Origin: Flavobacteriales bacterium
GTDB taxonomy: Bacteria > Bacteroidota > Bacteroidia > Flavobacteriales > UBA1820
NCBI GenBank assembly: GCA_017620815.1
Contig: JAGAUI010000042.1
Location: 1 to 41,640 of the forward strand
Length of the DNA: 41,640 bases
Direction: 5' to 3'
Shown here: piece by piece, positions 20,963 to 32,499 of the stretch
How positions within the stretch are numbered: the first letter of the stretch is position 1
Layout: every line of letters begins with the position of its first letter
Program-made: the position numbers and the translations under genes
Notes under the pieces: generated by a model
What the model saw: only the letters and a program-made list of their open reading frames with translations
Database searches by the model: none
Told to the model about the DNA's origin: nothing

Positions 20963-21754
20963 TTAAATCTTCTCGGCAGCCCATAGAGGTAGCCAACCAG
21001 TTTTGCCATCGGCTAGACGTATCTTATACCAGCCATCCAGTGTCTCTTCTATGGCAAATTTAGCTCCTTCGTGTAGTGAGAAGGCATCACCACCAGCATT
21101 GCTTGGTTCGCTTTTTACGGTAACATTGGTGGCAGTGATAATGGCATATGGGCATTGGTTGATTCTATTGTGGGCACTGCGGTTCATAGCATAGAATAGA
21201 GATGAAAGAGCTATGGATATGATAAACAGGTAAAATGACGTGCGACGTACTCCTACCGATTTTCCATAGATAAACATCACAAATAATATCCCCGTTATCC
21301 ATAGGCAAACTATTGTTATAATACCCCAAGTGCTAGCATCAAAAAGACCTACCATCGCCTCCCACACGCGTGAAGTAAGCGAAGTACCTAGAGGTACTAT
21401 GTTATCTGTGGTCATACGGCGAGCTAGCGTCAAGTTATGTTCTATGTCTTTGTCGCTAGGGTCTAGAAGGGCAGCTCTCTCGTATGCTAGTATGGTGGGA
21501 GCTATATATCCCAGACGATAGTATGCATTGCCTAGATTGTTATAAAGTTCGGCACTATGGTATCCTGCCGAAAGTATAGTCTGGTAGGATTCGGCGGCAG
21601 TTTTATAATCTCCGTTTTTATATGCTGTGTTGCCACGAGAGAATAACGTGTCTATGTTCTGTGCATGGATAGATAATCCCGATAGTAGCAGGATAGCTAT
21701 GCAAATGATATTCTTTATGTCAAGTATCTTTTTTCTCATCTCTGGTTTTGTCAT
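20963..21754 (-). CDS. batE: BatE: TPR and SH3-like membrane protein
   Basis: The 263-residue protein has an N-terminal hydrophobic signal (residues 14-31, ending HAQ), TPR repeats at about 36-105 (NTAYKNGDYKTAAESYQTIL is typical), two membrane segments (about 142-162 and 171-190) and a C-terminal SH3b-like domain with the pattern WYKIRLADGKTGWLP. It is the last gene of the Bat operon. Its start overlaps the batD stop by one base. Bat proteins were named for aerotolerance in Bacteroides fragilis; the molecular job is still uncertain and may concern cell-envelope integrity. Confidence 0.88.
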   Translation of the reverse strand: MTKPEMRKKILDIKNIICIAILLLSGLSIHAQNIDTLFSRGNTAYKNGDYKTAAESYQTILSAGYHSAELYNNLGNAYYRLGYIAPTILAYERAALLDPSDKDIEHNLTLARRMTTDNIVPLGTSLTSRVWEAMVGLFDASTWGIITIVCLWITGILFVMFIYGKSVGVRRTSFYLFIISIALSSLFYAMNRSAHNRINQCPYAIITATNVTVKSEPSNAGGDAFSLHEGAKFAIEETLDGWYKIRLADGKTGWLPLWAAEKI

Positions 21755-23637
21755 TAGTTCTTGATACTCTTGTTTACATCTTCTATCGCTATGCGTGCGG
21801 CATTGTAGTCTTCTAGTGCAGTAGAAGATGAAAAACCTGCATAACGAGCCATCTGGCAGGATTCCAATACTTTTATAAGACGCGATGCTATTTCTGGGTC
21901 GGCACCACGGGATATAAGACGTCCACCTATATTCTCTATAGAAGCATCGCTACGACGTATCTTGAGTTTGTCTAGTATAAAGCTATACATGGCGTCTTCC
22001 ATCTCTCCATAAAATGCGACATAATCTCCTCTATCCAGAGCCTTTTTGGCACGGGAGAGTTTCTTTTTGGCAGCAGAGGCAGCACGTTTGGCACGCGAAG
22101 CAGGCGAATTACGGTCTATGCTAGATGTGAGGAATCTGATGGCTAGGCATAGAGGTATTAGTCCTAGTGGAATGAGAGCTAGTATAGTAAATACCCAAGT
22201 GTCATACCATTTGGCGATGTTTTTCTGCTCTAAACGGTTCTCATGTTGTATGTAATGGATGTCGTCAGAAAGGTATTTGACATCGGTTTTATTGGCAGTG
22301 GGAACAGCGTTCTGTGTGGGGGTGGCAGTGGTGTTTACTACTGCATCTCCTGTGACGTTAAGTGTTTTTTCGCCGCTTTTAAGAGTAGTGTATTTTCCTG
22401 TTTTGGGGTTAAAATACGAGAAATTTACCGAAGGTATAGCATATGAGCCTTTAAGACGAGGTATGAGTATATACTGGATGTCTATTCCTCCAGACATAGT
22501 AGAAGAGCCTAGACGACTTTCCTTGTTTACCTGTGGGTCATAGCTTTCTATCTCCTGTGGAAACTCTACATGTGGAGTTTCAAGCAATGGTATGTTACCC
22601 TCTCCTTTGAGTTTAATGGTATATGTGGATGATGCACCCGCACTTACGTCTGATGGAGAAAGAGTACTCTCTAGGGTGTATTGACCTACTGCTCCGTTAA
22701 AGTCTGCTGGACGACCAGCACTAGGTAGTTCGCGTACATTTATGGACAGGCTGTTACTGTTTATGGAGAGTTGGGATGCACGTGTTATCTCCTCTCCCCA
22801 CCAATCATACTGCCCAGTACCTACTTCGGCAATCATGTTTACAGAAAGTGGAGATATCTTAAATGTGCCAGCTTTCTGTGGTATAAGTAGTGTTTTATAG
22901 AAAGTAACTACGTTATATAGTTCGTCTTTATAGTAGTCGCGTTGACCTTCATTGCGAGGGATATCACTTTCTTGGTAGGCTTGTGTCCAAAACCCGTCAA
23001 ATTTTGGCATTGAGTTAAGATATGTCTGACCAATGTTTACTCTATAATACAGACGATATGTTATAGTAACGGGCTCTCCTATGTAAGGTCGTGAATTTGA
23101 AACAGTAGCTACTAGGTGTATGTTTTCGGCAGCATTGCTAGGGGTGTTGAGCATAGATGATGAGGCAGACGCCTGTGAGGAGGCGTTGTTCTGCCCTTCT
23201 ATGGCTGGGCCTACGCTTATGGATATGCCAGCGGTGCTATGCTCCTTGCCTTCTACTATGACTATGGCAGGTCCTATAACGGCTTCTCCCTCACGCAAAG
23301 GTTGTAGTATGTAAGATATGGTGGTCTTACGCTCCATGCGAGAACGACCATTGATGTTGTTATAAGACATGCTAGAGAACTGATTGGGCCCAGCAAGCAC
23401 GTTGAAGTCTGAAAGGACAGGGGGGATAAATTTCTCCATATCATCATTGACGACTATCTCTAGAGAAATGTTTTCGTTGACAGCTATTTTCTTTTTGCTG
23501 ACAGTGGCTGTTACTATGCTCTCATTTTGAGCATAAAGACTTTCACTCCCCAATGCTATATAAGCACACAATATCCAAAGCAACATTCTAGCTGCTCTGG
23601 ATATAGATGTAGTTATGTTTATGTTCCTTATCATCAT
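21754..23637 (-). CDS. batD: BatD: large exported membrane-anchored protein
   Basis: The 627-residue protein has a signal peptide (ending SLYAQ, about residue 37), a long beta-rich periplasmic part of the BatD (oxygen tolerance) family with VATVSKKKIAVNENISLEIV near the start and repeated Ig-like segments such as YIGEPVTITYRLYYRV, then a single membrane helix near residue 480 (TWVFTILALIPLGLIPLCLA) and a basic helical cytoplasmic tail (rich in RAKRAASAAKKKLSRAKK). It overlaps batE by one base. This matches the family layout and suggests it passes a signal or force across the membrane; that is inference. Confidence 0.9.
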   Translation of the reverse strand: MMIRNINITTSISRAARMLLWILCAYIALGSESLYAQNESIVTATVSKKKIAVNENISLEIVVNDDMEKFIPPVLSDFNVLAGPNQFSSMSYNNINGRSRMERKTTISYILQPLREGEAVIGPAIVIVEGKEHSTAGISISVGPAIEGQNNASSQASASSSMLNTPSNAAENIHLVATVSNSRPYIGEPVTITYRLYYRVNIGQTYLNSMPKFDGFWTQAYQESDIPRNEGQRDYYKDELYNVVTFYKTLLIPQKAGTFKISPLSVNMIAEVGTGQYDWWGEEITRASQLSINSNSLSINVRELPSAGRPADFNGAVGQYTLESTLSPSDVSAGASSTYTIKLKGEGNIPLLETPHVEFPQEIESYDPQVNKESRLGSSTMSGGIDIQYILIPRLKGSYAIPSVNFSYFNPKTGKYTTLKSGEKTLNVTGDAVVNTTATPTQNAVPTANKTDVKYLSDDIHYIQHENRLEQKNIAKWYDTWVFTILALIPLGLIPLCLAIRFLTSSIDRNSPASRAKRAASAAKKKLSRAKKALDRGDYVAFYGEMEDAMYSFILDKLKIRRSDASIENIGGRLISRGADPEIASRLIKVLESCQMARYAGFSSSTALEDYNAARIAIEDVNKSIKN

Positions 23638-23659
23638 CTTTAATTCTTAAAATACAAAG

Positions 23660-24583
23660 TTACCAATCTTTGGTGGATTTTTTACCTACTCCCTGTACTT
23701 TCTCTCCTTTGACTTTTTCCTGTGTCTCCTTTTCTTTTCCTGCTATTGCATTAAGCATTTGTTCGTCCTGGGAGGATAGAGGGCGTTGTTGTGGAGGGGG
23801 ATTCTGCCCCTGACCATTGTTCTGATTTTTATTCTGGTCTTGGTTATTTTGATTTTGGTCTTTGTTCTGGTCTTGGTTATTTTGATTTTGGTCTTTATTC
23901 TGGTCTTGGTTGTTTTGGTTTTGGTCTTTATTCTGGTCTTGGTTATTTTGGTTTTGGTCTTTGTTCTGGTCTTGGTTGTTTTGGTTTTGGTCTTTGTTCT
24001 GGTCTTGGTTGTTTTGGTTTTGGTCTTTATTCTGGTCTTGGTTATTTTGATTTTGGTCTTTGTTTTGGTCGTTCTGACCTTCACCATCACCGTTCTGGTT
24101 CTGATTTTGATTATCCTGATTTTGGTTCTGTTGCTGGTCTTTGAGGAGTTCTTTGGCTAGGGCTAGATTATAACGAGCCTCTTCGTCACTGGGATTGCGA
24201 CGTAGGGCGTCCTTGTATAATTTTATGGCTTCGCCGTAGTTCTGAGCATCCATTTGCAGACCTCCTAGGTTATAGAGTATATCTGCTTTTTCCTCCTCAC
24301 CGGGGGTGTTCATAAGAGCCTTCATCCATTGGGCGTGTGCCGATGCCGCATCCCCACCTAGATAAAGAGCATTACCACGATTATAATACCCTATAGCATA
24401 AGACGTGTCATTCATTACCGCCATAGCATATAGGGAGTCTGCTATGGGGTAACGAGCTTTTTTATATTGGCTATTGCCCTCTCGTAGGTATTTTTTCTTC
24501 TCCACTTGACCATAGACGTTATATGTCGAAACCAATAGGGCAACAATGGCCAAAAATACCGATGTTATATAGTGTCTTTTCAT
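23660..24583 (-). CDS. batC: BatC: TPR protein with an Asn/Gln/Asp/Lys repeat
   Basis: The 307-residue protein has an N-terminal signal or anchor (about residues 7-25), a TPR region at about 30-150 (for example ILYNLGGLQMDAQNYGEAIK), then a low-complexity part of 7 units of DQNKDQNQNNQ (residues about 172-250) between Asn/Gln-rich flanks, and a C-terminal segment that keeps the motif PLSSQDEQMLNAIAGKEKET and ends KSTKDW, as in other BatC proteins. The repeat is encoded by 33-base tandem DNA units and looks prone to change in length. It lies 15 bases after batB and 22 before batD. Confidence 0.9.
   Translation of the reverse strand: MKRHYITSVFLAIVALLVSTYNVYGQVEKKKYLREGNSQYKKARYPIADSLYAMAVMNDTSYAIGYYNRGNALYLGGDAASAHAQWMKALMNTPGEEEKADILYNLGGLQMDAQNYGEAIKLYKDALRRNPSDEEARYNLALAKELLKDQQQNQNQDNQNQNQNGDGEGQNDQNKDQNQNNQDQNKDQNQNNQDQNKDQNQNNQDQNKDQNQNNQDQNKDQNQNNQDQNKDQNQNNQDQNKDQNQNNQDQNKNQNNGQGQNPPPQQRPLSSQDEQMLNAIAGKEKETQEKVKGEKVQGVGKKSTKDW
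23832..24062. repeat. Seven 33-bp tandem repeats inside batC
   Basis: Seven adjoining 33-base units (231 bases) start at 23832 with TTCTGGTCTTGGTT and repeat at exact 33-base steps (23865, 23898, 23931, 23964, 23997, 24030). They differ only at a few positions (A/G in TTATTTT/TTGTTTT and GATTTT/GGTTTT, last base A/G), which appear silent in the batC frame. Degenerate copies continue on both sides. Other frames stay open here only because the unit is repeated. Confidence 0.93.
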
Positions 24584-24598
24584 TTCTTTATCAATGTT

Positions 24599-25660
24599 TT
24601 AGTCCTCATCTATGGCTTTTTCCTCGCCAAAAATGTTGTAACGGCTACCCAGACGACTACGACGGTAACCTATCAATACTTCCAATATCAAGAAGAGTAG
24701 AGCAGCCCCAGCAAACCACTGATAACGGTCTTTGTATTCTATGATTTCGGTGGTGCCGTATTCGTTTTTTTCGCTTTTGCCTAGTATGTCCTGTATCTTT
24801 TCTACTACGTTCTGTGTAGAAGAACCATCTATGTATTCTCCACCCGCTGCGGCTGCTATGCTGGAGAGGGTAGCCATATCGGCTTTGGTTACTACTACCT
24901 CGCCTTTTGTGTCTTGTTTATAAGACTTGATAAAACCATCGGGGCCGCGTAATGGTATAGGCCCACCAGCAGGAGTACCTACACCTACTGTATATATCTT
25001 GATGCCTGCCTCACCCGCAGCTTTGGCTATGGATGCAACGTCTAGGTCTTCATCGTGGTCTTCACCGTCTGATATTACCACAACCAATTTGTTTTTAACC
25101 GTAGGGTCATCAAAATATTTTTGTGCTAGGATTATGGCTTCGGCGATTGAAGTGCCTTGTGATGAAACCATACCGGGTTCGGCTGTGGATAGGAACATTT
25201 TGGCTGCCGAATAATCGCTAGTGATAGGTAGCAGAGGGTAAGCACTGCCAGCATAGACTATTATACCTACTCTATCCCCTCCCAATGCGTCTATGGTGCG
25301 AGAGATGACTTGTTTGGCACGAGATAGACGGTTTGGAGCTATGTCTTCGGCCTTCATAGATAGAGAAATATCCAGTACAAATACCACGTCTGAGCCTTGC
25401 ATTTTGACCTTTTCTATCTTGGTGCCAATGCGAGGATTAACTAGTGCAAGAGTAAGACATACTATGGCACAGGAAACCATTATGGTCTTCCATACGAGTG
25501 CCGAAGTACTTTTATATGGCACTAGAGAAAGCATAAGACGGCTGGAAGCAAAGCTTTCGGCTTTTTTTCTACGATATCTCAATATGTATGCCAGTAGTAT
25601 CCATAAAATAGGTACTAGCAATAGTAGGTAAAGATATATTGGTTTGTCTAGTTCGTACAT
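24599..25660 (-). CDS. batB: BatB: membrane VWA-domain protein
   Basis: The 353-residue protein has two N-terminal membrane helices (about 8-28 and 58-75), a von Willebrand A domain with the metal-binding motif DISLS at residues 97-101 and SDGEDHDED further on, and a C-terminal membrane helix (about 316-336). The VWA domain should face the periplasm. It is a paralogue of BatA directly upstream; the two likely work as a pair. It is 39 bases downstream of batA. Confidence 0.92.
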   Translation of the reverse strand: MYELDKPIYLYLLLLVPILWILLAYILRYRRKKAESFASSRLMLSLVPYKSTSALVWKTIMVSCAIVCLTLALVNPRIGTKIEKVKMQGSDVVFVLDISLSMKAEDIAPNRLSRAKQVISRTIDALGGDRVGIIVYAGSAYPLLPITSDYSAAKMFLSTAEPGMVSSQGTSIAEAIILAQKYFDDPTVKNKLVVVISDGEDHDEDLDVASIAKAAGEAGIKIYTVGVGTPAGGPIPLRGPDGFIKSYKQDTKGEVVVTKADMATLSSIAAAAGGEYIDGSSTQNVVEKIQDILGKSEKNEYGTTEIIEYKDRYQWFAGAALLFLILEVLIGYRRSRLGSRYNIFGEEKAIDED

Positions 25661-25699
25661 AGTTTTCTGTTTTTGTTCTCTATAAATGAGAGTGAAACA

Positions 25700-26707
25700 T
25701 TATATGAATCCTTTGTATATAGTACGGCGGAGGATTATCTCTATCATTAGCAGGCATAGAGCAACGAGTAACCACCCCCTGAACATCTCGTCATAGTTAT
25801 AGAACTTGATGTCCTCTATCTTGCTTTTTTCCAGAGAGTCTATCTCGTCATATATAGACTGAAGTTTGTTCTCATCGGTAGCACGGAAGTATTTACCTCC
25901 TGTGGTAGATGCTATGTCTCGCAATAGAGCTTCGTCTATCTCTACCGGTACTTTCTGATACACCACACGACCTGTGCGAGGGTCTTTGGCAACGGGGTAG
26001 TCTGCCAGACCGTTGGTACCTATACCTATGGTATAAACCTTGATGCCTAGTTTACGAGCTATGTCTGCCACGGTACGAGGGTCAACAAAACCGTCGTTGT
26101 TTATACCGTCTGTAAGTAGTATGATGACTTTGCTTTTGGCTTCACTGCCTTTAAGACGGTTTATAGCAGTACCTAATCCCATACCTATGGCGGTAGTCTC
26201 ACCTATAAGCCCCTGACGCAGATTCTGTATGGCTTGTACCACTACACGTTTGTCTGTAGTAAGAGGAGTCTGTGTGAATGCTTCGGAAGCATATGAAACC
26301 AGTGCTACACGGTCTGATGTGCGTCCCTGTACAAAATCTGACGCTACCTTTTTAAGTGCATCAAGTCGCGAGGGTTTGAAGTCTGCTGCAAGCATACTGC
26401 CCGAAAGGTCCACAGCCATAACTATATCTACTCCTAGACCAGCACGGGACTGTGTGCTTACCTCTACATCTCTAGGACGTGTCATGGCAACTATGATACA
26501 CGCTAGTGCAGCAAAACGCAGTACCCATAGTACATGACGTGTCTTTACTCTCCACGAACTACTCAAACGGAACGCACGAGTAGATGAAATCTTTAAGTAT
26601 GGATACATCTTATGTCCTCTCCACCATATAAATCCTGCTAATAGTGGCAGAATGAGTAGTAGGTAGAAAAAGACTTTATCTACTATTTCAAAACTATTCT
26701 GTACCAT
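25700..26707 (-). CDS. batA: BatA: membrane VWA-domain protein
   Basis: The 335-residue protein has helices at about 12-28 and 58-75, a VWA domain with an intact MIDAS (DLSGS at residues 100-104, the Thr in TPLTTDKR, the Asp in LTDGINNDG) and a final membrane helix near 308-328. Family members may act with the MoxR ATPase of the same operon as a chaperone-like pair. The start codon overlaps the stop of the preceding gene by 14 bases, showing tight coupling. Confidence 0.93.
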   Translation of the reverse strand: MVQNSFEIVDKVFFYLLLILPLLAGFIWWRGHKMYPYLKISSTRAFRLSSSWRVKTRHVLWVLRFAALACIIVAMTRPRDVEVSTQSRAGLGVDIVMAVDLSGSMLAADFKPSRLDALKKVASDFVQGRTSDRVALVSYASEAFTQTPLTTDKRVVVQAIQNLRQGLIGETTAIGMGLGTAINRLKGSEAKSKVIILLTDGINNDGFVDPRTVADIARKLGIKVYTIGIGTNGLADYPVAKDPRTGRVVYQKVPVEIDEALLRDIASTTGGKYFRATDENKLQSIYDEIDSLEKSKIEDIKFYNYDEMFRGWLLVALCLLMIEIILRRTIYKGFI

Positions 26708-27683
26708 TTTCTTTGGGTTTTTGGGTGAGGGATTCTTCTGCTGGTGCTGGACGTAGAGTATCTATTATAGCCTCTATGAACATACGATAACGGTTGTTGT
26801 CATCTGGAGAAGGGAACATCTTGGCAAATTTCACGAGGTCTGCATCGGTGAGGAATTCACGCATCTGATGATACTGCTCGTGAGTGAGATGAAGTTTCTT
26901 TATCTCGGCTAGTATTTCACTAGATGTGCTCTCTGGTGCAGGAAGGTCAAATTCTTCATCCAGATATAGACGTATTACATCGGTAAGACCTACATAGTAT
27001 TCTTTTACCATGTCTTTTTCTATATACCCAGCCTCGTCCAGACGATTAAGACGGAATTTGGCACGTTCATAAGGACTCAAAAGTAGTTCTGGAGCCATGC
27101 GTTTGATACGTTCTTTGCGTATTACGCGTATTATCTCCCATACGAGCAATGCCAATACTATAAGTACTAGTGGTATCCACCAGTACTGTTGCAATACTTC
27201 GGTAAATGTGTAGCGGTCTGTACGTATGTCCTTGATGCCGTAACGAGCCTGTTGGAGAGTGTCCACAGGTACTGTAAGCACTTCTATCTCAAAAGGGTCG
27301 GTAGTGATGATGTCTTCACCAGCTTTTACCTGAATAGGAGGTATGTGGTATTTACCCTCATCAAACGAAGTAATACGATATGTGGTCTTGTATATTGCAC
27401 GCTCCTTTTTATATGTAGTGTCTATCTTCCCGTGACCTAGGACTTCTATGCTATCGGTAGAAGGTTTGATTTCGGGAAAGGCTACTATGTCTTTACGGGG
27501 AGCGGTTACTTCTATAGAAAGGTTTATCTGTTCGCCTAGACGTATCTTGGTAGTGTCTGTCTGCCAAGATATGGTAGGACTATTCTGTGCATGGAGCATA
27601 GGTATTCCTATCATAAATGATAAAAATACAGCCCACACACATAATTTATTTGCTCCTAAAATATCCCAATAGTTTTTTTGCAT
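26694..27683 (-). CDS. Unnamed Bat-operon membrane protein between DUF58 and BatA
   Basis: Read from ATG at 27683 it gives 329 residues with a good signal peptide (MQKNYWDILGANK..., cleavage near HAQ, about residue 32), a beta-rich periplasmic part with an Ig-like LGEQINLSIEVTAPRK stretch similar to BatD, one membrane helix at about 165-187 (WWIPLVLIVLALLVWEI) and a helical cytoplasmic tail (SPYERAKFRLNRLDEAGY, then EYYVGLTDVIRLYLDEEF), similar to DUF4381-type proteins in MoxR-VWA operons. An ATG six bases upstream is also possible. Longer reading to 27836 would overlap DUF58 by about 190 bases and hide the signal peptide. It overlaps DUF58 by 38 bases and batA by 14. A partner that places VWA proteins at the membrane is inference. 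Confidence 0.8.
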   Translation of the reverse strand: MQKNYWDILGANKLCVWAVFLSFMIGIPMLHAQNSPTISWQTDTTKIRLGEQINLSIEVTAPRKDIVAFPEIKPSTDSIEVLGHGKIDTTYKKERAIYKTTYRITSFDEGKYHIPPIQVKAGEDIITTDPFEIEVLTVPVDTLQQARYGIKDIRTDRYTFTEVLQQYWWIPLVLIVLALLVWEIIRVIRKERIKRMAPELLLSPYERAKFRLNRLDEAGYIEKDMVKEYYVGLTDVIRLYLDEEFDLPAPESTSSEILAEIKKLHLTHEQYHQMREFLTDADLVKFAKMFPSPDDNNRYRMFIEAIIDTLRPAPAEESLTQKPKENGTE

Positions 27684-28509
27684 AATCATCTCGGGTGCTA
27701 GTGGTGATGGTTCCTGCTCCACTATGGCGGAACGATTCTTCAAAATAATTGCAACGTGATATATATTGATTGCGGTACTGACGGCGTACTTCTCTAGACG
27801 AAGTGTCTGCCCATACATATTCCCCGCTCTCATCATGACGCATGAGTACCATACCTACATCGGGTAGTTCTTCTTCGGCAGGGTCATAGATGCGAATGCC
27901 AGTCATATCGTGTTTACGAGCCATGATTTTAAGGGAGTCTGCATATCCAGCGTGTATGAAGTCTGATACTAGAAATACTATGGATTTTTTCTTCATCACA
28001 CCAAATAGATACTCCATCGCCACTTTGATATCTGTTTTCTGGCTGTGGGGAGTAAATTCTATAAGTTCGCGAATGATACGCAGTACGTGCATACGTCCTT
28101 TGGCAGGAGGGATAAAAAGTTCTATGGCATCTGAAAAGAGGAGTAGCCCTATTTTATCATTGTTTCCCATAGCCGAAAAGGCCAGTGTGGCACATATTTC
28201 GGTGATAATTTCTCTTTTGGTAATGTCATCACTGCCAAAGAATTCGCTACCAGAAACATCCACAGCAAGCATAAGTGTGAGTTCTCTCTCCTCTTCAAAT
28301 ACCTTGACGTGTGGAGTATTGGTCTTGGCAGTTACATTCCAGTCTATGTTACGCACGTCATCTCCATACTGGTAAGCACGCACTTCGCTGAATGTCATAC
28401 CACGTCCCTTGAAGGAGCTGTGATACTCTCCCGAAAATACATGGTCTGACAGTCGCCGTGTCTTTATCTCTATCTTGCGTACTTTTTTAAGTACTTCCTT
28501 TACGTCCAT
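27646..28509 (-). CDS. DUF58 protein (VWA-like) of the Bat operon
   Basis: The 287-residue protein is a typical DUF58 member: YQYGDDVRNIDWNVTAKTNT (residues 46-65), then the metal-site motif DVSGS at 84-88 in a VWA-like domain. No membrane segment is visible, so it should be cytoplasmic. DUF58 proteins are almost always coded next to MoxR ATPases and are thought to be partners or substrates of them. A gap of 67 bases separates it from moxR. Confidence 0.9.
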   Translation of the reverse strand: MDVKEVLKKVRKIEIKTRRLSDHVFSGEYHSSFKGRGMTFSEVRAYQYGDDVRNIDWNVTAKTNTPHVKVFEEERELTLMLAVDVSGSEFFGSDDITKREIITEICATLAFSAMGNNDKIGLLLFSDAIELFIPPAKGRMHVLRIIRELIEFTPHSQKTDIKVAMEYLFGVMKKKSIVFLVSDFIHAGYADSLKIMARKHDMTGIRIYDPAEEELPDVGMVLMRHDESGEYVWADTSSREVRRQYRNQYISRCNYFEESFRHSGAGTITTSTRDDYAKKLLGYFRSK

Positions 28510-28576
28510 CTCTTGTGTGTTTTTATGTTATAAATTGGGCAGGGGTTCATGCTGCCATCATAGTAGAGGGAACGCT

Positions 28577-29587
28577 CTATGGTACTTGTACTTCGTTGAG
28601 GATAGAGCTTATGATTTCTTCTGAATGTACGTTTTCTGCTTCGGCCTCATAAGTTACTCCTATACGGTGGCGTAGAACGTCTGGTGCTATGGCACGTACG
28701 TCTTCTGGAATGACATAACCACGACCGCGTAGGAAAGCATATACTTTGGAAGCGGTAACTAGATTTATGCTACCACGAGGCGAAGCTCCGTATGCGATAA
28801 GAGGTTTGAGTTGGTCTAGTTTATACTGTTCTGGGTAACGTGATGCAAATATGATGTCTAGGATGTATTTTTCTATCTTTTCATCCATATATACTTCGCG
28901 GGCAGCAGCACGTCCACGAGAGATGTCTTCCAGTGTAACCACGGGGCGTATTTTCTTCTGTCCTTCGGCAGATGTGTTGTTACGCATGATGCGTTGTTCA
29001 TCCTCTATAGATGGATATGAAACCACTGTTTTAAGCATAAAACGGTCCATCTGTGCTTCGGGTAGAGGGTATGTACCTTCCTGTTCTATAGGGTTCTGTG
29101 TAGCCATCACTAGGAATGGTTCACATAGTGGGAATGTCTCATCACCTATGGTTACCTGACGCTCCTGCATTGCCTCCAGTAGTGCAGACTGTACTTTGGC
29201 AGGGGCACGGTTGATTTCATCGGCTAGGACAAAATTGGCAAAAACAGGCCCTTTTTTGATAGAGAAGTTGCCCTCTTTTACGTTGTATATCATAGTACCT
29301 ACTACGTCGGCAGGGAGAAGGTCTGGAGTGAACTGGATACGAGAGAATACACCATCTACGGCTTTGGAGAGGGAGTTGATGGCGAGTGTTTTGGCTAGAC
29401 CGGGGACACCTTCTAGTAGGATATGTCCGCCACCTAGCAGTCCTATAAGCAGACGTTCTACCATCTGGTTCTGTCCTACTATGACGCTGTTTATCTCACT
29501 GGTTAGCAGGCTTACAAATGCACTTTCACGAGCTATTTTTTCACTTATAGCACGTATATCTACCGATGTTCTGCTTGTCTGTTCCAT
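28577..29587 (-). CDS. MoxR-type AAA+ ATPase
   Basis: The 336-residue protein has Walker A GVPGLAKT (residues 60-67), Walker B LADEINRAP (121-129), sensor 1 ATQNPIEQEGTYPLPEAQMD (starting at 162) and the C-terminal lid domain. MoxR ATPases act as chaperones that mature or remodel partner proteins; in this layout (MoxR-DUF58-VWA-TPR) the partners are the Bat proteins. It is the first gene of the minus-strand operon. No good promoter match was found in the 200 bases upstream, shared with mtnN. Confidence 0.92.
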   Translation of the reverse strand: MEQTSRTSVDIRAISEKIARESAFVSLLTSEINSVIVGQNQMVERLLIGLLGGGHILLEGVPGLAKTLAINSLSKAVDGVFSRIQFTPDLLPADVVGTMIYNVKEGNFSIKKGPVFANFVLADEINRAPAKVQSALLEAMQERQVTIGDETFPLCEPFLVMATQNPIEQEGTYPLPEAQMDRFMLKTVVSYPSIEDEQRIMRNNTSAEGQKKIRPVVTLEDISRGRAAAREVYMDEKIEKYILDIIFASRYPEQYKLDQLKPLIAYGASPRGSINLVTASKVYAFLRGRGYVIPEDVRAIAPDVLRHRIGVTYEAEAENVHSEEIISSILNEVQVP

Positions 29588-30556: not shown

Positions 30557-30593
30557 AAAACATCGGGCAGCCCTCTGGGCTGCCCGATGTTTT
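30557..30593. terminator. Bidirectional terminator between mtnN and the CdsZ-like gene
   Basis: A 17-bp perfect stem (30557-30573 with 30577-30593) over a TCT loop, with A4 before and T4 after a GC-rich core CATCGGGCAGCCC. It can serve both converging genes. Confidence 0.9.
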
Positions 30594-30611: not shown

Positions 30612-31394
30612 TTAAATGTCAAAGTCTGCAAAAAGAGGAGCCATTTTTTCTTTTTCCTCGGCAGCTAAAGCAGGGTCCACAAGGATACGTCCGCTGTTCT
30701 CGTCTGCTATGATTTTCTTACGCATGGCTATCTCTATCTGACGTTGTGCAGGGATAGTGAAGTATGAACCTTCGCTGGCACCGCGGTCTATAGATACTAC
30801 GGCAAGACCATTGTGTACGCGGGCACGTATCTTGCGATATGCAGTAAGTAGTCGTGGCTCTATCTGTGTAGAAATCTCGTCTGCTTTTACTTGTAGAGAT
30901 TCCATTTCGCGTTGAGTTTCTGCTAGTATGCCGTCAAGTTCGCTCTGTTTAACACTCAATTTACCACCCAATGTCTGTATTTTTTCTTCGGTGGCAGCTA
31001 TATTTGATTTATGTGCTTCTAGTTTTATAGACGCTTCGCGTATCATTTTTTCGGCGTGAGTGATGTTGAGTTCTTCGTACTCTATCTCACCTGTAAGGGC
31101 GTCATATTCGCGGTTATTGCGTACGCTCTTCTGCTGGTTTTCATAACGAATGATAGCGTCTTTGGATTCTAGTATGGCTTTTCTGAGGTCTTTAAGACCG
31201 TCTTCGGCTTTCTGATATTCTTCTCTAAGACGTCCCAAACGAGTGTTAAGACCTTCTATTTCGTCTTCTAGGTCCTGTACTTCTAGAGGTAGTTCGCCTT
31301 GGATAGCACGTATCTGGTCTATGCGTGAATCTATAAGTTGCAAGTCATATAGTGTACGCAACTTCTGTTCTACTGTAATTTCTTTTTCTGCCAT
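30612..31394 (-). CDS. CdsZ-like coiled-coil protein with a cysteine-less zinc ribbon
   Basis: The 260-residue protein is a long coiled coil (about residues 5-180, heptad-rich with Glu, Lys and Leu) followed by the small C-terminal domain that normally is a C4 zinc ribbon. Here the ribbon frame is kept (IPAQRQIEIAMRKKIIADEN, then SGRILVDPAL), but the two Cys pairs are replaced: SEGS instead of a CxxC and A-D-E-N-S instead of a second CxxC. No cysteine exists in the whole chain. The usual zinc-ribbon relative (CdsZ or zf-RING_7) is linked to NIF3-family genes, as here, where the NIF3 gene ends one base before this start. The function is not settled. Confidence 0.8.
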   Translation of the reverse strand: MAEKEITVEQKLRTLYDLQLIDSRIDQIRAIQGELPLEVQDLEDEIEGLNTRLGRLREEYQKAEDGLKDLRKAILESKDAIIRYENQQKSVRNNREYDALTGEIEYEELNITHAEKMIREASIKLEAHKSNIAATEEKIQTLGGKLSVKQSELDGILAETQREMESLQVKADEISTQIEPRLLTAYRKIRARVHNGLAVVSIDRGASEGSYFTIPAQRQIEIAMRKKIIADENSGRILVDPALAAEEKEKMAPLFADFDI

Positions 31395-31395
31395 T

Positions 31396-32499
31396 TTATT
31401 GCAAATAATTGATAGGGTTTGTGTCTATATCTGATAAACAGACTGCAAAGTTAGTGAATTTTTCGGATATATAATCCCATAAAATGTTTTTTGTAAAACG
31501 TTCACTCTCAAAATGTCCTATATCTGCCAGAAGAATGTCGCCTTCGGCAGAAAAATAGTCGTGGTATTTAAGGTCGGCAGTGATAAAAGCATCGGCTCCA
31601 GCTCTACGTGCCGATGTTATGGCAAAACTGCCAGAACCACCCAATACGGCTACCTTTTTTATCTTTTTTCCAGTAAATGCCGAATGTCTTATCCCTCTCG
31701 CATCAAATGTATCCCTTACCATCTCTAGAAAACTTTTCTCATCCATAGCATAGGGTAGATGAGCTATCATTCCCATGCCTATGCGTTTGTTTTTATTCTC
31801 CAATGCTACTATTTCATATGCAGGTTCTTCATAGGGGTGAGAGGAAAGCAGAGCGTTTATGACAGATGATTTGCAGTGGGAGGGGACGATGACGTTTATC
31901 ATGTCTTCTTCCTCGCTGTGAAGAAGTCCTACACTCCCTACATAAGGAGTGGCTCCTTCTTTTCCACAGAATCGCCCTGTCCCCCTTGTCGTCCATGAGC
32001 ATTGGTCATAATCCCCCATAGCTCCTGCTCCTGCTGCCGATAGGGCGGTTCTTACTATCTCACTATGGGATAGAGGGACATATGTGGAAAGACGATAAAG
32101 AGTGTTTTTCTGTGGAATGAGTATTTTTCTGCCTTTAAGCCCCAATGCACGACACATGCCTTCGTTTACTCCTTCCCAAGAATTATCCAGTGCGGTATGT
32201 ATGGCATATATAGCTATGTCGTTTTTTATGGCTGTCATAACGGCTCGTTCCACATAGTTGCTGCCTGTAAGGCGTTTAAGTCCCGAGAATATGATAGGGT
32301 GGAAGGCTATAATCATATTGGCTCCTTTTTCTACTGCCTCCATGACTACTTCTTCTGTACAGTCGTGGGTGATGAGTATGCCCTTGACTATACTACTGGG
32401 AGAGCCTACCAGAAGACCTACATTGTCAAAATCTTCGGCATAGATGGTGGGTGAAAGTTGTTCTAACGCTCTTGCTACGTCTTTTACTCTTGTTTCCAT
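31396..32499 (-). CDS. NIF3 family protein (YqfO/YbgI type metal hydrolase-like)
   Basis: NIF3-family proteins are a widely conserved but poorly defined group with a two-metal site; GTP cyclohydrolase type I annotations are based on weak evidence. Read from the ATG at 32499 it has 367 residues and starts METRVKDVARALEQLSP, with DFDNVGLLVG, the metal-site AFHPIIF and, near the C-terminus, DIGHFESERF (His and Glu ligands). A middle insert with HPYEEPAYEIV makes it the long YqfO-like form. An upstream start at 32529 would add ten residues but overlaps a -7 box, so 32499 is preferred. It is coupled to the CdsZ-like gene with a one-base gap. Confidence 0.87.
   Translation of the reverse strand: METRVKDVARALEQLSPTIYAEDFDNVGLLVGSPSSIVKGILITHDCTEEVVMEAVEKGANMIIAFHPIIFSGLKRLTGSNYVERAVMTAIKNDIAIYAIHTALDNSWEGVNEGMCRALGLKGRKILIPQKNTLYRLSTYVPLSHSEIVRTALSAAGAGAMGDYDQCSWTTRGTGRFCGKEGATPYVGSVGLLHSEEEDMINVIVPSHCKSSVINALLSSHPYEEPAYEIVALENKNKRIGMGMIAHLPYAMDEKSFLEMVRDTFDARGIRHSAFTGKKIKKVAVLGGSGSFAITSARRAGADAFITADLKYHDYFSAEGDILLADIGHFESERFTKNILWDYISEKFTNFAVCLSDIDTNPINYLQ

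Follow-up and report, generated by a model that had tools for sequence, protein, structure and literature searches.

The FlgZ/CdsZ family (COG1579, DUF164) is built as a long coiled-coil hairpin followed by a ribbon-fold domain with two zinc-binding CXXC pairs (PF02591), and an NIF3/DUF34 gene is a frequent, though not defining, neighbour. Its chlamydial member, CdsZ (CT398), reportedly binds sigma-54 and the secretion apparatus. Zinc ribbons that have no cysteines and are still functional are known from the C-minus ribosomal proteins (L31, L33, L36 and S14). In Helicobacter pylori FlgZ, each of the single changes C202S and C223S greatly reduced RpoN (PMC3372290), indicating that the zinc site matters in this protein; C202S (position 2) was stable and C223S (position 3) was unstable. 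That paper (Pereira, Tsang, Mrazek and Hoover, 2011) also described an SXXS_X20_DXXS motif in DUF164 proteins of Flavobacteria, for which a function without zinc was suggested, and recorded NIF3 as a neighbour in Bacteroidetes and the co-occurrence of DUF164 with RpoN. The loss of the cysteines in flavobacteria was thus already published in 2011, and the protein described here is a further member of the published class. The same text, as far as accessible, contains no mention of convergence, intermediates, a C-terminal helix or retention in symbionts, and a search lying mostly outside subscription papers found no later literature on the cysteine-free form.

The window, i.e. the whole stretch of 41,640 nucleotides that was analysed, contains such a gene next to NIF3, with the following features:

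30560..30590, no strand assigned: perfect 14-bp inverted repeat with a 3-nt loop and A/T runs on both sides, between convergent genes (read from the sequence)
30612..31394, minus strand: cysteine-less FlgZ/CdsZ-type gene (P0001), 260 aa, best PDB sequence match 4ilo (CT398)
30618..30674, minus strand: C-terminal helix (LAxEExEK tail), residues 241-259, from the AlphaFold2 model; sequence varies within the genus
30675..30800, minus strand: ribbon-fold domain without cysteines, residues 199-240 (PF02591 match; predicted strands and helix)
30693..30704, minus strand: former second CXXC, now D231-E-N-S234 (homologue alignment)
30765..30776, minus strand: former first CXXC, now S207-E-G-S210 (homologue alignment)
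30867..31373, minus strand: long coiled-coil hairpin, residues 8-176 (AlphaFold2 model; PF24481 CT398_CC, 23.7 bits, cut-off 27)
31396..32499, minus strand: NIF3/DUF34 gene with its ATG at 32499, 1 nt upstream of the cdsZ-like start (PF01784, 243 bits; TIGR00486, 179.8 bits)

The reading frame of P0001 is unbroken, as the original prediction had stated, being open for 260 codons from an ATG to the TAA stop at its end, and the 260-aa product has no cysteine at all. Upon alignment with homologues, the family cysteine positions corresponded to S207, S210, D231 and S234; the claim that all four had been changed, with SEGS and ADENS in their place, was right, the third and fourth residues being exactly Asp and Ser, respectively. 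The sequence frame of the family ribbon, also predicted to be kept, is present around the changed positions (GA-xxG, IPxQRQ-EI, KK and SGRILVD), and the motif and spacing are those of the flavobacterial proteins (S207-xx-S210-x20-D231-xx-S234). Coupling to NIF3 was borne out by a gap of a single nucleotide between the NIF3 stop and the start of P0001 (TAA-A-ATG).

In the protein search, PF02591 matched residues 207-238 with 26.3 bits against a curated cut-off of 29.1, and it reached 29.2 bits, just above this cut-off, in a six-frame search of the genome; 66 of the 69 cysteine-poor relatives matched the same profile at E 0.001. The best solved structure by sequence was C. trachomatis CT398/CdsZ (4ilo; phmmer E 2.5e-6). 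A profile of the 69 relatives found CT398 at 8.9e-28 and HP0958 at 1.1e-21, with two lamin coiled coils as the next PDB matches at only 1e-4; since the two family members lie so far ahead of the lamins, homology to the FlgZ/CdsZ family is clear. The description CdsZ-like in the original prediction is therefore valid for a homologue of CdsZ but not for a CdsZ equivalog, as NCBIfam NF047363 gave 44.3 bits over residues 9-250, whereas its cut-off is 275. Taken as a whole, the explanation that we consider probable is that the window protein belongs, as nothing out of the ordinary, to the cysteine-free flavobacterial branch of this family and would be a working adaptor, very likely metal-free.

Judging from its sequence, the inverted repeat at 30560-30590 is probably a bidirectional terminator, although a consensus terminator scan did not flag it; the convergent gene downstream of it belongs to the PNP_UDP_1 phosphorylase family (PF01048). 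An Rfam search of the window gave no match. It was also noticed that the minus strand at 20963-29587 has a gene run resembling a Bat (aerotolerance) operon, with MoxR-type ATPase, DUF58, BatD-like, two VWA (one BatA-like), TPR, BatD and TPR/SH3 genes.

Homologues were detected in 55 of the 59 sampled genomes besides the window's own (56/60 with it). The four positions were read in 220 homologues, comprising 208 of the 209 loci (including L001 of the window) and 12 more, with L197, a fragment of a broken gene in G393, left out of tallies and trees. Two genus relatives (L002 and L003) had replacements identical to those of the window protein; with the gene also present in the 55 other genomes, this is not a chance occurrence. 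The fourth sampled member of the genus (G002, 97% complete) gave no match to the gene or to NIF3, a blank that fits a missing stretch of its 140-contig draft or the loss of both genes. Loci with none, one, three and all four of the cysteines numbered 74, 2, 2 and 25, respectively, in the window's order, 4, 3, 0 and 61 in the rest of the class, and 3, 12, 0 and 34 in the rest of the phylum, in a sample picked by hand with stratification by family and weighted towards close relatives, such that percentages are not phylum frequencies. By family, the site was kept in 57 of the 82 in the phylum, lost in 23 and mixed in 2; in the window's order, it was lost in 11 of 16. The ten loci with taxon names, from Flavobacterium, Polaribacter, other Flavobacteriaceae and unclassified Bacteroidetes, all had S-S-D-S, and this order is very probably Flavobacteriales. 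The loss is a clade feature shared by the genus and these 11 families. Neither outcome named in the original prediction as speaking against it was seen: the close relatives having the gene are without the four cysteines too, and most sampled families of the phylum keep them. For much of the phylum, the name "C4-type zinc ribbon" given to PF02591 is a misnomer. A separate state was observed in L036 and L105 (family f11), in which the first pair has lost its second cysteine, along with a deletion of 2 residues, and the second pair is complete; this is possibly an early stage of another loss.

Within the genus, where three members with a match were compared (G002 having none) and synonymous sites were near saturation, nonsynonymous difference per site was 0.034, 0.034 and 0.045 for the ribbon and 0.162, 0.247 and 0.175 for the rest together. 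In sliding windows of 38 codons (223 in total), the ribbon had 0.038 and the first 49 residues 0.028-0.031, with a median of 0.19, these being the two best-conserved segments. The ribbon is not the most conserved part, as nine of the 223 were lower, the lowest eight listed starting in residues 1-12. Identity in the tail (residues 241-260) was 45-70% within the genus, a variability that speaks against a critical packing role of the helix. In proteins of the Flavobacteriales type, a conserved LAxEExEK tail typically extends 22-27 residues beyond position 4; the four-cysteine members of the order have 10-17 residues there. The idea that the tail marks the loss is weakened by the four-cysteine f77, which already has a version of the tail and helix, by distant four-cysteine proteins with long but different tails, and by the variation within the genus.

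The number of losses was assessed on a tree of the coiled coil only, with the ribbon columns left out, containing 99 rows (208 rows thinned to 101 by an identity rule, after which six long-branch rows were removed and four added). Four-cysteine versus lost states required 8 changes (bootstrap 7-9; the starred branches alone force 7), and one clade for all 25 Asp-bearing rows was rejected with p-AU 1.2e-6, the groups having been named after seeing the tree, which favours rejection. The tests did not reject a single origin for the Flavobacteriales type with f57 (p 0.48), for these two with f21 (p 0.463), or for the A[FY]C[TS] group together with f34/f36 (p 0.643). Some placements were odd: two long four-cysteine rows (f69 and f96) sit inside the cysteine-free clade, probably by long-branch error, and the four-cysteine f77 is nested between f57 and the rest of that clade. 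Because of these placements and the mergers that the tests do not reject, the claim is held to at least four losses, not 8. By this count, the zinc site disappeared on at least four occasions within the phylum, every one of them giving members that have Asp as the third and Ser as the fourth residue of the site. One origin comprises the Flavobacteriales type with f57 and f21, these two having the loss either through common descent or through gene transfer; here the third residue is still Ser and the fourth still Cys in f14 and L170. Another is f22 (ACDS), a family that also includes a four-cysteine protein; a further one is f34/f36 with its sister group A[FY]C[TS], which has Cys at position 3 and Thr or Ser at position 4, so that only f34/f36 have Asp-Ser; and the last is L162 (C-DS) in f45, the two other f45 members having four cysteines. 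One cysteine of the first pair remains in f22, f34 and L162. The one-cysteine intermediates f14 (TSSC) and L170 of f57 (SSSC) are consistent with the first pair being lost before the last cysteine.

Of 108 loci picked for having the gene, in both cysteine forms, 107 had a same-strand NIF3 upstream of it, L223 being without one; the survey list further included a second entry for the window and one locus lacking the gene, and 8 entries with overlapping open frames fell outside the spacing rule of the script. When five genomes without a CdsZ-like gene (G002, G160, G045, G391 and G091) were searched for NIF3, four were without both genes. G091 (L263, f11) had NIF3 in a 577-aa frame, with no CdsZ-like match in the ~0.55 kb after it or elsewhere in the genome; adjacency is therefore not universal. 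A different situation was seen in G393, a genome of ~490 kb from the same class, in which NIF3 and the FlgZ/CdsZ-type gene (L197 / L225) are each in two pieces and apparently broken. In the window NIF3, the first His of the metal-site HHP pair is Phe (AFHPIIF); eukaryotic NIF3 has Tyr at this position, according to the accessible part of PMC8469502. Phe or Tyr occurred there in 51 of 75 NIF3 rows with a site-lost partner (49/73 minus two extra copies of the window NIF3) and in 0 of 32 rows with a four-cysteine partner, two rows being gapped. However, nine families (f5, f8, f14, f21, f22, f34, f36, f48 and f57) lost the site and retain HHP, and in locus L238 an NIF3 with FHP is paired with a four-cysteine protein; these exceptions indicate that the His change and the site loss are not tied. 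In these bacteria, the ribbon domain provides no basis for metal-delivery models of the NIF3 pair.

The AlphaFold2 model made on the cysteine-poor alignment had a mean pLDDT of 87.7 (76-85 in the ribbon blocks, lowest at the first knuckle) and showed the family architecture, with ribbon strands, a short helix (216-224) and the terminal helix (241-259) after the coiled-coil hairpin. The order of elements was the same in the model of the four-cysteine f77 (mean pLDDT 95.6; ribbon 97-98); the lower ribbon confidence of the window protein in this comparison counts against the metal-free explanation. The top four VIA-align matches, 4ilo (Z 17.8), 3na7 (17.1), 5y06 (15.9) and 5y05 (15.7), were solved family members, and the next row, unrelated, had Z 12.8, a gap by which the fold match stands above the coiled-coil background. 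A ribbon-like fold retained without the cysteines, which the original prediction had expected, is thus found in the predicted structure; as AlphaFold2 works without zinc modelling, this fold is no proof of the metal-free state.

We propose that the ribbon-fold domain on its long coiled-coil hairpin very likely folds without zinc. The Asp and Ser replacing the second cysteine pair would hold the turn by backbone hydrogen bonds, as the zinc-bound thiolates did, and the added C-terminal helix may pack on the ribbon domain. The H. pylori mutants show that the cysteines are not simply removable without compensation; by analogy, the unstable C223S and the stable C202S fit a special replacement at position 3, here Asp. 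The protein, produced from a two-gene unit with NIF3, would most likely act as an adaptor or chaperone. Its best candidate client is sigma-54 (RpoN), as for H. pylori FlgZ and chlamydial CdsZ, and it probably has at least one further, more basic role, given that some genomes retain the gene without sigma-54.

In the sampled genomes of the phylum, both the homologue and RpoN were present in 198/198; in the order, the homologue was found in 187/196 and RpoN in 186/196, and in 150/152 and 152/152, respectively, when high-quality genomes were counted. With both nearly universal, co-occurrence carries little information. More telling is family f16, made up for the most part of 183-634-kb genomes that resemble those of insect symbionts among the flavobacteria. 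RpoN was detected in 55 of its 68 sampled genomes, and 64 of the 68 gave a match to the gene, namely 55/55 RpoN-positive versus 9/13 RpoN-negative genomes; these are related genomes in which non-detection may be divergence, and as they represent few independent events, the counts favour a tie to sigma-54 only slightly. The nine carriers without RpoN (L251-L259, 183-300 kb) were also without detectable NIF3, and eight of them have a full-length open frame; among the 18 f16 genomes searched for NIF3, 3 had it. Seven of the nine are from genus g238 and gave weak matches (E 1.7e-10 to 2.8e-4; G509 with only a 144-aa frame); in the g238 copies, from genomes of 183-200 kb, the first knuckle is decayed and the second leaves a D-x-x-T-x-K-I-L remnant. 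The two g235 copies without RpoN keep DE[NT]SGRI. Walczuchella, Uzinella and Blattabacterium reportedly retain RpoN, which has been called unusual for insect endosymbionts, and the table in the accessible part of that paper gives one RpoN absence among four, by elimination Sulcia (PMC3971599); this absence would fit the g238 pattern if g238 is Sulcia. Since nine carriers have neither RpoN nor NIF3, neither partner explains the protein fully, and the f16 pattern suggests that the sigma-54 tie is not the whole function. A partnership with sigma-54 is plausible on the basis of co-occurrence, without being the only role. A protein of unsettled function is retained in some very small, symbiont-like flavobacterial genomes without its two supposed partners.

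Loss of all four ligands could also mean that the ribbon is a dying domain in one genome, or a sequencing artefact, and first-knuckle decay does occur in the g238 genomes, which are without RpoN. Such isolated decay has hardly any credibility left here and is refuted by a replacement that is both shared and conserved: it is the same throughout the genus members having the gene, the site is lost in most families of the order, the ribbon is one of the two best-conserved segments, and DE[HN]SGRI is kept even in genomes of 263-345 kb (L037, L261 and L262). The strong conservation of D-E-H-S in most site-losing families of the order would agree with a hard-ligand site in which the new Asp, Glu, His and Ser bind another metal. 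This is improbable, since several families have Pro, Ala, Ile or Thr at position 1, leaving no conserved ligand set, and E-H is present already in the four-cysteine form (CEHC) and hence is not a new ligand set; in addition, the window genus has Asn233 where relatives have His, and Asn occurs there also in L110. C-plus/C-minus pairs are known for ribosomal proteins and provide a precedent for regarding the protein as the zinc-independent half of such a pair, like the spare ribosomal proteins of zinc starvation. For the window genome, we consider this extremely unlikely and refuted unless a second copy lies in missing sequence, as a search of this 99.46% complete genome at E up to 10 gave a single PF02591 match and no cysteine-bearing copy, and P0001 had one match in G000. 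The double matches in G200, G223, G263, G393 and G415 are pieces of one gene; two matches are listed also for G069, G182 and other f30 genomes.

Far more weight is given to the view that the main job is independent of sigma-54 and NIF3, e.g. binding RNA, the ribosome or RNA polymerase, with a co-occurrence that is incidental because both are near universal. It is favoured by the nine f16 genomes with neither partner and by Actinobacteria and Thermi, in which, according to the accessible part of PMC3372290, DUF164 is present and RpoN mostly absent. On the other hand, RpoN is missing from all four f16 genomes that gave no match, every one of the 55 RpoN-positive genomes has a match, and a decayed first knuckle is seen in each of the seven g238 copies that were read, whose genomes are without RpoN. 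We regard an independent main job as a serious possibility, somewhat short of probable.

Returning to the metal-free adaptor of the flavobacterial branch as the preferred explanation, a wider reading is advanced tentatively, as one that may well be too ambitious when its parts are taken jointly: that the zinc ribbon became metal-free at least four times, the second-knuckle CxxC turning into DE[HN]S each time, via TSSC/SSSC in at least one lineage; that the C-terminal helix, present in the four-cysteine f77, predated the loss; and that the domain is essential enough to persist in 183-300 kb genomes after sigma-54 and NIF3 are gone. If true, this would provide a natural series for the replacement of a structural metal and place the ancestral role of the family outside both known partners. 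The potential importance lies in this evolutionary series, that is, the parallel replacement of a structural zinc site by the same two residues, with living intermediates.

Compared with the known systems, the window protein has a motif and spacing identical to those of the flavobacterial DUF164 class, from the same phylum (PMC3372290); nothing essential differs, the window genus having Asn for the usual His (DENS). H. pylori FlgZ/HP0958 (3na7) has a similar coiled-coil hairpin and ribbon and NIF3 upstream, and it matches the window model with Z 17.1 and rmsd 6.1 over 236 residues; it differs by its four zinc cysteines, two of which were tested and needed for RpoN accumulation, and identity is 15%. 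C. trachomatis CdsZ/CT398 (4ilo) is the closest solved structure (Z 17.8, rmsd 3.4, 235 residues), but it has four cysteines and is 19% identical to the window protein. The C-minus ribosomal proteins are spare paralogues under zinc control, whereas the window gene is a single copy that was replaced for good.
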